Below, piece by piece: positions 60,580 through 64,000 of a stretch of 64,000 nt of DNA. The stretch's first letter is position 1; each line of letters starts with the position of its first letter. The notes beneath the pieces were generated by a model. That model saw only the letters and a list, made by a program, of their open reading frames with translations. It was not told the DNA's origin and searched no databases. The position numbers and the translations under genes were made by a program. The stretch covers positions 124,001-188,000 of the forward strand of contig NZ_JAKFYQ010000003.1 in the NCBI RefSeq assembly GCF_021533835.1. The letters are read 5' to 3'. The DNA is from Synechococcus sp. Nb3U1. GTDB taxonomy: Bacteria > Cyanobacteriota > Cyanobacteriia > Thermostichales > Thermostichaceae.

Positions 60580-60972
60580 TTAGGCAGGCTCTGCATTGTC
60601 GGTGCCTGCTGCGGTCAGGTGGTCTAGGGCTTCTTGTAGAGAGCTGCGCAACGAGAGGAACTTCTCCAATCGCACCAGTTTCACGGTTTGGGTGACGCGG
60701 GCATTACTCACCACCTGGAAAATACCGGAGTGGCTCTGCACTAGCTTGGCCAACTGTACCAAAGCACCCACACCGGAGCTATCCACAAAGTCGATCCCTG
60801 TCAAATCCAAGATGATGTTGGGGGATCCCTCTTCCAAATACTTGGTGACGACTTTACGAAAGATGGGTTCAGAAAAGGCATCCAGAAGGCCGGTCAGGTG
60901 AAAGACCTGGCAGTTTTCCAGTGCTTCGTGGCTGCCGCGTAAACTGACCGTTAAAGACAGTGGTTCCGGAAT
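60580..60972 (-). CDS. STAS domain protein with apparent ATT start
   Basis: This is an anti-sigma-factor-antagonist-like protein of about 130 residues with the STAS core ILDLTGIDFVDSSGVGALVQLAK (phosphorylatable Ser in DSSG). Cyanobacterial relatives start with the strand LSLTVSLRG, which here lies upstream of every ATG, GTG or TTG in frame. The only suitable initiation site is ATT at 60972, with AAGGAG (60980-60985) exactly seven bases upstream. The frame above ATT is open to a stop at about 61050 but has no standard start. Using TTG at 60837 would cut off 45 residues of the domain. Confidence 0.8.
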   Translation of the reverse strand: MPEPLSLTVSLRGSHEALENCQVFHLTGLLDAFSEPIFRKVVTKYLEEGSPNIILDLTGIDFVDSSGVGALVQLAKLVQSHSGIFQVVSNARVTQTVKLVRLEKFLSLRSSLQEALDHLTAAGTDNAEPA

Positions 60973-61224
60973 GGCTCTTCTCCTTTTAATAATCTCGACA
61001 GAGGGGTACGCTCTGGATCCCGGCTGTGCAGGCCGGATCTCCGGCGTGGTGATAGCTTAACATCCTGCTTCACCTAAATTATCGCCACAAGTGGCATTCT
61101 GTTTTCCCTTCGGCCCCGTGGCAAGCCCAGAGTCCTTGAGTAGGATGGGAGCAACTTGTGTTGCGCAACAGTAACACAGATAGAGTTGCCGGATTGGAAT
61201 AGAGACCTTATGTAGGATCCCCGT

Positions 61225-64000
61225 GTGAGGAGGGGCGAGCCGTTGGGTGAAGATCAGTGGGATAAGGACGTGCAGCAGCGACGACTCAACCTAACTTGGG
61301 TGGGGGCAGGTTTGGGTCTTGGCCTGACGGCGGCTTCTTTCGGGGCGGTGTGGGGTGCCAGTGCTTACATCCAAGGGCAGTTGTTGCCTCAGGTAGAAGA
61401 GACCTTATCGCAGGCGTTGCGGCGACAGGTGGAGTTGGGGGAGGTCACCTTCCTCGCCCCTTGGCAGGTGAGCTTGGGAGAAAGCCGGATTGAGCATTTG
61501 GCCACGATAGGTTCCATCGACCTCAGCCCTGATTTCTGGACTTGGGTACAAACGGGGGAATGGGTGCTGAACCTCACCCTTGATCAACCGCAACTGCTGA
61601 TGATGGAAACCTTGGATCGCGGTTGGGCGGATATTCAGTTTCAACTGCCGCAGCCTGAGGGGGAGGGATCCCTGCCCATTCAGGGCTTGAATGTTCATCT
61701 GCGGCGGGGATCTCTGACGGCCATCCCGTTGGTGGGGGAACGGCGACAGTTTGATCAACTGCAGGCCCAGGCGCAGATTTGGTTGGCCGGGGAGCCGCAA
61801 GCTCCAGCAGAGCAAAAGGACTCCGTCCCGCTGCCGCCAACGGGAGGGCGAGCCAGTTTCCAGCTTTCCGCAAGATTGCAATCGCCGGATACTTCGGGCG
61901 GCCATCCGGTACGCCTTAGGGGGGTGGCGGATTTTCCCCAGGCTTCCGGTTCGGTTTGGGTTTCATCTCGGAGTGTACCGCTGGATTTGCTGCCCAGCCT
62001 CTTACCCCAGGTGCCTCTAACCGATGTGCAAGGGAATGCCGGTTTGGAGTTGGAGGTGGCTTGGGGTCGGGATCAACCGCTAGACCTGACAGGACAAGCT
62101 CGCCTGCAACAGGCCCGCCTTGGGCTGGAGATGTTGCCTCATCCTTTTGAGGAAGTGAGTGGTTCTGTCCGGTTTACTTTGCAAGGACTGGATCTGGAGC
62201 AGGTGAGCGGTACCTTCGGCCAACTGCCCTTCCGGGATCTGAATGGCCCGATTCGCTTCGGTGCTGAAGGGTTCGATTTACGGGCAGACCTTCCCCAGGC
62301 CAGCTTGGCGCAGGTACAACAAACTTTCGATTTTGACCTGCCCGTGGATGTGGAGGCGGTGCTGGGGGGATCCCTGACGGTGGGGGGATCCCTGACGCAG
62401 CCAGAAATCCGGGGTCAGCTTCAGGCGCAGGCTCCTGGGCGGGTGGATCGGATCCCGTTGCCGCAGTACGGTTTGGATTTTCGGTTTGCCAACCAGACTT
62501 TAGCCTTTGAGCGGATCGACTTGGCAGCTGCTGGTGGACGCATTCAAGGTTCCGGTCAGCTCCAACTAGGCCTGCGTCCCGCTGACGCGAAGGGATCCCG
62601 ACTGGAGGGCTTGTTTCAACTTCAGGTGAGGGGGGCGGATGCCGAGCAGGTGGTGGGCTGGTATGGGGGCAGCTTGCCGCGCTCGGTGGGGCAGGTGTCC
62701 GGGCAGGTGGAGGTGGCTCTGATGGGATCCCAGCCACGGATCCAAGGGACTTGGGAGGCCACCGGGGGAGAGATTGCTGGCACGGGGCAAGTGCAGATTC
62801 TGCGTGCCCTGGAACCTGGGGCACTGCCGGATACCCGCGGCTGGGTGGTGGAGATTCCGCAGGCGATGTTAAGGCTGGGGGAGGGGCAGGCAGCACTGTC
62901 GGGGCAGTGGGCGCAGGGGCAAATTCAGGCGCAAGTGGCTCCGCAAAATCTCCCCTTGTCTTTCTTCAACCCAGAGTTGGCAGGATCTCTCTCGGGGGAT
63001 ATTACGGCTCAGGTGAACACGGCTGAAATAACGGCATCGAGTGTCTTGGCGGCATTGCGGGCAGAAGGATCTGTAGCCCTTTCTCAACCTCTAGGCGACA
63101 TCAAGGGGCAGGTGGCCTGGGATGGATCCGGCTTGGTGATTGAGCGCGGAGAAGCGCTGGGGCTGGCAACAGTGCAAGGGCGGATCCCGGTGGATCCCGA
63201 AACCCTCCAGGTGGGATCCCTAGATTTGGCTGTGCAGGCAGATGAGGTTTCGCTGGCTCAGATCCCGGGTGTACCCGACCCGGTGCAGGGGGTTCTGCAG
63301 GGTTCCGGTCGAGTACAGGGATCCCTGGATGATTTGCAGGTGCAGGGGGATGCTCAGCTACGGGGCCTGACTCTGGGGGGGATCGGCTTTGAGGATATGG
63401 CGGGGCCTTTTCGCTGGTCTAGGCAAGGGACAGAGGTGGCTTTGCAGGGGCAAAGAGACCAGTTGGCGCTGAGTTTGGATCCCCAGTTTCAACCGCTGCA
63501 GTTCCGGGTGCGCCGGGGAGAAGCGGAGGCAATCGGTCAGCGACAGGAAGACCTTCTGCAGGTAGGGGTGAACCAGTTGCCCTTGCCCCTGGTGGCTGGG
63601 TGGGTGGCAGAAGGGCCTTTGGCCAGCTTGGAAGGGATCCTCAGCGGCGATCTGGCCATCAACCTCAGGAATCGCGCTGTACAAGGGCGAGCCTCCGTCG
63701 CGGATCTGCGCTTAGCAGGCATTGAGGCGCAAGGGTTCTCTCTGGATTTCGACTATCGGGTGGATCGCCTTACCGTCACTCAAGCGCGGTTGGATTTGTT
63801 CGAGAGCACCTACACCGCTAGCGGTACGCTGCGTCTGCCGGAAGCCCCCCTCCTGGCCCGCTTGGATCCCAGCCGCGAAACCCCTGTGCCTCAGATCGAA
63901 CTGCAGATCAGTACCACCCAAGGCCGCCTGGAAGATATCATCTCCACCTTTAAGTGGCGGCAATGGAGCGATCTGACCCGCCGCGGCTTCCAGTTACCCC
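61225..64000 (+). CDS. TamB/Tic236-like protein, 5' part
   Basis: The frame is open to the window end (at least 925 codons). It starts with a signal anchor (LTWVGAGLGLGLTAASFGAVWGASAY), then the conserved AsmA/TamB-like block and long beta-rich repeats with GxxxxxGxxxQPEIRGQLQA pattern, ending in the TamB-like RLEDIISTFKWRQWSDL. TamB proteins span the periplasm to the outer membrane and serve lipid or protein transport. The start is GTG 61225 (AGGA upstream) or TTG 61243 (AGGAGG upstream). At 62363-62397 a GGGGGATCCCTGACG-like unit occurs twice. Confidence 0.9.
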   Translation, partial: MRRGEPLGEDQWDKDVQQRRLNLTWVGAGLGLGLTAASFGAVWGASAYIQGQLLPQVEETLSQALRRQVELGEVTFLAPWQVSLGESRIEHLATIGSIDLSPDFWTWVQTGEWVLNLTLDQPQLLMMETLDRGWADIQFQLPQPEGEGSLPIQGLNVHLRRGSLTAIPLVGERRQFDQLQAQAQIWLAGEPQAPAEQKDSVPLPPTGGRASFQLSARLQSPDTSGGHPVRLRGVADFPQASGSVWVSSRSVPLDLLPSLLPQVPLTDVQGNAGLELEVAWGRDQPLDLTGQARLQQARLGLEMLPHPFEEVSGSVRFTLQGLDLEQVSGTFGQLPFRDLNGPIRFGAEGFDLRADLPQASLAQVQQTFDFDLPVDVEAVLGGSLTVGGSLTQPEIRGQLQAQAPGRVDRIPLPQYGLDFRFANQTLAFERIDLAAAGGRIQGSGQLQLGLRPADAKGSRLEGLFQLQVRGADAEQVVGWYGGSLPRSVGQVSGQVEVALMGSQPRIQGTWEATGGEIAGTGQVQILRALEPGALPDTRGWVVEIPQAMLRLGEGQAALSGQWAQGQIQAQVAPQNLPLSFFNPELAGSLSGDITAQVNTAEITASSVLAALRAEGSVALSQPLGDIKGQVAWDGSGLVIERGEALGLATVQGRIPVDPETLQVGSLDLAVQADEVSLAQIPGVPDPVQGVLQGSGRVQGSLDDLQVQGDAQLRGLTLGGIGFEDMAGPFRWSRQGTEVALQGQRDQLALSLDPQFQPLQFRVRRGEAEAIGQRQEDLLQVGVNQLPLPLVAGWVAEGPLASLEGILSGDLAINLRNRAVQGRASVADLRLAGIEAQGFSLDFDYRVDRLTVTQARLDLFESTYTASGTLRLPEAPLLARLDPSRETPVPQIELQISTTQGRLEDIISTFKWRQWSDLTRRGFQLP

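Follow-up and report, generated by a model that had tools for sequence, protein, structure and literature searches.

A conserved ATT-class start codon in a cyanobacterial gene for an Ssr1600-type anti-sigma factor antagonist

Introduction

Near one end of the DNA analysed here, a 64,000-nucleotide stretch from Synechococcus sp. Nb3U1 that we refer to as the window, a gene for a STAS-domain protein appears to be initiated at ATT. This raises the question whether the codon is the true start of the gene, whether it is a peculiarity of this strain, and what it might mean for the amount of protein that is made. To our knowledge, non-canonical start codons that are kept by selection are rare. Literature searches, judged by title or abstract opening, returned no publication devoted to a conserved ATT start of this gene, and no experiment on its start came to light. 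Two sources could already include the gene discussed here, namely Sato and Tajima 2012 (Genomics), to which PMC8557916 refers for non-canonical starts, ATT and ATA among them, and Table S6 of PMC8557916 itself, with eight revised genes of Nostoc PCC 7120 that start at ATA or ATT.

The features of the start region and of the open frame are as follows:

60580..60972, minus strand: STAS-domain gene (putative Ssr1600 orthologue), open frame from ATT, 130 codons plus stop
60970..60972, minus strand: ATT, start codon as indicated by the codon of the relatives and the NTG-free leader
60973..60974, minus strand: pyrimidine pair CC directly 5' of the start; a pair is present in 215 of 219 relatives
60980..60985, minus strand: Shine-Dalgarno sequence (SD) AAGGAG, 7 bases 5' of the ATT; an SD match of at least 5 bases is present in 197 of 219 relatives
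61057..61059, minus strand: upstream in-frame stop codon TAA, read from the sequence
60835..60837, minus strand: first in-frame NTG, a TTG at codon 46, read from the sequence
60580..60582, minus strand: stop codon of the STAS gene

Results and Discussion

The open frame and its product

The first-pass annotation had claimed that AAGGAG stands seven bases before the ATT and that no in-frame ATG, GTG or TTG occurs before residue 46. Both statements hold: the SD is found at 60985-60980 on the minus strand, and the TTG at 60837 is codon 46. The family N terminus LSLTVSLRG described in the same annotation is likewise present near the ATT, but its offset had to be corrected, as it begins at codon 5, i.e. 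four codons after the ATT and not five. On the upstream side, 28 codons separate the TAA (61059-61057) from the ATT (60972), and none of them is an NTG.

In profile searches, the product of the gene scores above the cut-off of TIGR00377 (59.9 versus 53.45 bits) and matches PF01740 (STAS; 57 bits versus a cut-off of 22.6 bits, E 1.8e-15); by sequence, the product belongs to the anti-sigma factor antagonists with a STAS domain. A second STAS protein is encoded in the same genome. Residues 64-67 form a DSSG motif with a putative phosphorylatable serine, which aligns with D58-S59-S60 of Ssr1600 at an offset of six. In Synechocystis, Ssr1600 is the antagonist of the anti-sigma factor/kinase Slr1861, which in turn controls SigC (PMC12329169). 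Our comparison with Ssr1600 used the 20 residue numbers given in PMC12329169 and not the gene of PCC 6803 by name: 18 of these 20 residues fit the window protein at offset 6, whereas the other tested offsets gave at most 4, and all 20 fit at offset 6 in 20 of the 140 loci compared. By residue numbering, the window protein matches an Ssr1600 orthologue. Because the published residue numbers fit at exactly six, Ssr1600 has most likely been annotated from what is really the seventh codon of its frame, six codons downstream of the actual start; in one of our loci (L228), codon 7 is a TTG. The term "start codon" is absent from the main text of PMC12329169, and the constructs described there would presumably lack the six N-terminal residues. 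Every one of the 59 genomes encodes proteins with a HATPase_c_2 domain, as do 12 of the 14 control genomes, so their presence does not single out a Slr1861-type partner.

The codon at the start position in relatives

Protein searches found homologues of the STAS gene in all 59 genomes of the nearest set and, at a threshold of 1e-20, in 185 of 386 genomes sampled from the phylum. The phylum matches all belong to the window's own class or are closer still, and the phylum genomes without a match at 1e-20 comprise at least one of this class (G152, the only such genome of the class among those listed) and at least 19 from the rest of the phylum. We read 259 loci, namely 80 on named contigs, 29 from the nearest set, 140 in fetched regions and 10 in the family of a Chamaesiphon genome. 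Of these, 219 are distinct over the stretch from -30 to +60. Two loci were left out (L001, the same place as L082, and L087, whose contig begins at residue 20), and the register of five others was corrected manually to allow for small indels (L208, L224, L239, L263 and L274); L214 comes without most of its leader, so that the tables of folding and of position conservation cover 218 loci.

At the codon aligned to the ATT of the window, the 219 distinct relatives have ATT in 166 cases, ATC in 29, ATA in 20, ATG in three and CTG in one, while GTG and TTG are found in none of the 219. As far as the sequences go, 215 relatives thus carry ATT, ATC or ATA, and 216 carry a start other than AUG, GUG or UUG. 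The CTG, another codon outside this canonical set, stands in L253 (genome G194) and is preceded by the strong SD AAGGAGGT. The same picture emerged at 14 additional places taken from the listed phylum matches, which stand outside the 219 and outside the gene tree: all 14 have ATT, ATA or ATC, and ten of them are new sequences.

Selection on the codon and the ATG exceptions

The gene tree was a quick FastTree run on the protein (about 120 residues) without its first three codons. Counted by parsimony, this tree requires at least 13 changes for ATA, 11 for ATC and one for ATG. Fourfold sites within this gene provide the comparison. At the six with a T majority, changes involving G make up 39% of the G/A/C changes, against which at most one change involving G among 25 has a P of about 8e-5; when all 17 fourfold sites are taken, the G share is 33% and P about 6e-4. 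Change counts and P values alike are rough because the gene is short, the tree quick and parsimony counts noisy. Taken at this resolution, the pattern of changes shows an avoidance of AUG at the start position in the relatives read, and judged by the relatives the ATT start is old and kept by selection. The absence of GTG and TTG says less than the absence of ATG, because both are two steps away from ATT.

The only ATG genes (G417/L046, G424 and G425) sit in a single family, that of a Chamaesiphon genome, in which 11 genomes were searched, one without a match (loci L285-L293 and L046/L283). All three have lost the strong SD; the seven other genes read in this family have ATC together with AGGAGG. 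ATG without SD and ATC with AGGAGG form a natural trade-off pair for start strength within one family.

Two neighbouring genes served as controls, for each of which the NTG nearest the aligned start was taken, so that an ATT-type start would appear only as "none". For carA, the codon is ATG in 76 of 76 cases, with an SD of five bases in one; among 113 RNase III-domain genes, an NTG was assigned as start 112 times, with one "none". Both controls describe the choice of SD and codon and do not amount to an open search for rare starts.

Start signals and alternative starts

An SD match of at least five bases precedes the conserved codon in 197 of the 219 relatives, with a spacing of five bases in 157. 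Shorter matches are confined to 22 loci, of which 16 belong to family f3 and three are the ATG genes; in family f3, the codon is ATT, ATC or ATA in all 20 loci read. A pyrimidine pair stands before the start in 215 of 219 loci, and at five further in-frame positions the corresponding count is 37 to 103 (of 218 or 219). We considered this pair as a gene-specific feature that would extend anticodon pairing and set the idea aside: the pair also precedes the start in 71 of 76 carA genes and in 64 of 112 RNase III-domain genes, and because both genes show it, it looks like a general start context in these genomes. An RNA structure that hides the start was rejected as well, since the region from -35 to +35 is less structured than its shuffles (mean z +0.86, 218 loci), and no conserved fold around the start was found in 70-base folds of the same 218 loci. 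In these folds, the unpaired fraction is 41% for the SD, 67% for the start codon and 53% for the whole stretch, so that the SD is not especially open.

These data bear on three other accounts of the codon. A strain-specific point change from ATG, which the first-pass annotation had offered as the other reading, is refuted and has a practically negligible probability: all four of the other readable members of the genus (L083-L086) have ATT, 215 of the 219 relatives have ATT, ATC or ATA, and because the relatives keep this class of codon, the ATT is not a point change here. A canonical start farther upstream, which would yield a longer protein and turn the ATT into an internal codon, could draw on the 61 of 219 loci that carry an upstream in-frame NTG, and two close relatives (L003/L085 and L086) have an ATG seven codons up. 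However, an SD match of five bases stands before this NTG in only two of the 61, whereas SD and pyrimidine pair point at the ATT, and bases upstream of position -13 show almost no conservation. Moreover, no such start with an NTG codon can exist in the window, nor in 155 of the 215 loci whose upstream stop is visible, as these 155 have no NTG between this stop and the start codon; in 48 loci, the stop is at most three codons away. We therefore hold an upstream start to be extremely improbable as an account of the gene, although a longer form is possible in the 61 loci with an upstream NTG.

Translation from a downstream NTG would give a shorter protein, in line with the published numbering of Ssr1600, which begins six codons after the ATT. 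Among the 155 loci without an upstream NTG, however, the position of the first downstream NTG varies widely, between codon 5 and codon 102, and because of this range there is no downstream start common to the relatives; in 73 loci, no NTG occurs at all from the upstream stop to codon 21. In the window, the first NTG is codon 46 and lies inside the predicted fold: in an AlphaFold2 model computed from 22 aligned sequences (mean pLDDT 87.7, with a mean of 89 for residues 1-10), a start at this codon would remove the strands 11-18 and 21-30 as well as most of the helix 35-48. The family alignment of the 22 proteins, in turn, holds from the ATT itself, with I1 nearly invariant, E3 invariant, and codons 3, 5 and 7-13 invariant throughout. 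Accordingly, a downstream start is very improbable, and the ATT is borne out as the start codon by the SD, the NTG-free leader and the same codon class in nearly all distinct relatives (215/219).

A start codon that may limit the antagonist

The best reading of the sequences is a start that would lower expression or be sensitive to IF3, as the first-pass annotation had suggested. In the mechanism that we propose and consider rather probable, an Ssr1600-type antagonist is translated from AUU, and the combination of a strong SD with a codon disfavoured by IF3 would hold the amount of this antagonist below that of its anti-sigma partner. According to PMC5472188, initiation complexes are destabilised by IF3 unless the codon is AUG, GUG or UUG, a set to which AUU, AUC and AUA do not belong; from a strong SD and such a codon, a low, IF3-dependent output is therefore expected. 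Going by established work on initiation, the strong SD would recruit 30S subunits, the complex with the initiator tRNA would be unstable because the third base of the codon is mismatched, and IF3 would reject the AUU-type complex most of the time. The antagonist would then be made at a low, capped rate and remain the limiting component in relation to the kinase/anti-sigma factor that it opposes (Slr1861 in Synechocystis); the rate of its synthesis would shift with the ratio of IF3 to 30S subunits. SigC, finally, would stay held by the anti-sigma factor unless unphosphorylated antagonist accumulates.

A limit on the antagonist at the level of the start codon fits because Ssr1600 acts by amount: suppressor mutants with mere traces of Ssr1600 rescue cells with an omega-less RNA polymerase in high CO2, and when Ssr1600 is over-produced, growth becomes slower in high CO2, an effect absent in ambient air (PMC12329169). 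The same paper calls phosphorylated Ssr1600 abundant in high CO2; the protein is thus not vanishingly rare in Synechocystis, which counts against our explanation.

Alternatively, a codon of the AUH class could simply be weak without any dependence on IF3. The start would then be a static low setting of expression, for which variation in the level of IF3 is irrelevant. This fits the behaviour of the three genes of the Chamaesiphon family, which swapped a weak codon with a strong SD for ATG without an SD, as would be expected under a constraint on output, and the lack of a conserved fold near the start (mean z +0.86 in 218 loci) also speaks for it. On the other hand, a strong SD would be odd if only low output mattered, and the neighbouring genes pair ATG or another NTG with a weak SD; we regard a purely static setting as somewhat unlikely. 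The conserved odd start suggests a deliberate brake on the amount of protein. Returning to the IF3-dependent limit that we prefer, a broader version of it can be put forward tentatively, though we rate it as rather doubtful: an IF3-gated start on the antagonist that frees the growth-limiting sigma factor SigC may have fed the state of the translation machinery into the choice of sigma factor ever since the common ancestor of the oxygenic cyanobacteria. If true, the growth programme would be inherently coupled to the status of ribosomes and IF3.

Comparison with known systems

By analogy, the closest precedent for the start of the STAS gene would be sigR of Streptomyces. There, too, a rare start codon is combined with an extended SD (a GTC start behind AGGAGGTG), the start is conserved across relatives (32/34 GTC, 2/34 GTT), the gene belongs to a sigma/anti-sigma switch in which stoichiometry matters, and its start is misannotated in genomes (PMC5472188). 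IF3 represses the GTC start of sigR, and with canonical starts the ratio of sigma to anti-sigma factor is disturbed (PMC5472188). The two cases differ in the limited component, which is the sigma factor in sigR and the anti-anti-sigma factor here, and in the codon and its breadth, with GUY in one genus as opposed to AUH in many families of one class. Furthermore, the effect of IF3 has been demonstrated for sigR, whereas it is proposed for the start considered here.

The infC gene of E. coli likewise starts with AUU, a class repressed by IF3, but there the codon provides autoregulation of IF3 (PMC5472188), whereas the STAS product is not IF3. As a candidate of the same kind, cyanobacterial infC was rejected: in the window's genus, the codon at the aligned start is TTG in 6/6 genomes (e.g. 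L112:2046-1489), and the starts are mixed in the other loci compared. Because of the TTG in all six, the IF3 gene itself seems not to use an AUU-type start in this genus. In E. coli pcnB, an AUU start limits a dosage-sensitive product whose function differs from that of the STAS gene. A further likeness exists to rsbW of Listeria, where a partner-switching regulator initiated at ATA or ATT is made in lower amounts and sigma activity is altered, the mutants with ATA or ATT starts having higher SigB activity (PMC13068326). In contrast to the present case, these are ATG to ATA/ATT mutants selected under acid challenge (PMC13068326) and not a conserved natural start, and rsbW encodes the anti-sigma factor, whereas our gene encodes the antagonist. 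The Ssr1600/Slr1861/SigC cascade of Synechocystis (PMC12329169) involves the same protein family, as judged by residue numbering.

The proposed mechanism is of a known kind; the unusual part is its breadth and its place in the SigC cascade. While the clearest case compared, sigR, is confined to one genus, the start of the STAS gene holds in many cyanobacterial families and belongs to a recently described growth cascade. Because gene callers that allow only ATG, GTG or TTG cannot place this start, annotated proteins begin at the wrong codon, and such annotations, and perhaps the constructs built on them, drop the native control. The question that arises is whether translation capacity, via IF3, sets the choice of sigma factor.

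Gene neighbourhood

Two further features of the window flank the STAS gene:

60547-59831: precorrin-2 C20-methyltransferase (NF004614), downstream of the STAS gene
61225-63999: divergent long open frame with a GTG start, at least 925 codons, running off the window

In 72 of the 80 named loci (L002-L081), the STAS gene is flanked by both carA (TIGR01368) and the RNase III-domain gene (PF00636), which we take to be mini-RNase III; L046:1212-3698 is an example of this cluster. The window differs from it in that the downstream gene is the precorrin-2 C20-methyltransferase in place of the usual neighbour. With the NTG nearest the aligned start, the 113 RNase III-domain genes, which lie downstream of the STAS gene in L046 and other loci, begin with TTG in 55 cases, GTG in 48 and ATG in nine, with one unresolved; weak starts thus occur in two genes of one cluster, the STAS gene and the RNase III-domain gene. 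On its other side, the STAS gene of the window has a common intergenic region with the divergent frame at 61225-63999.
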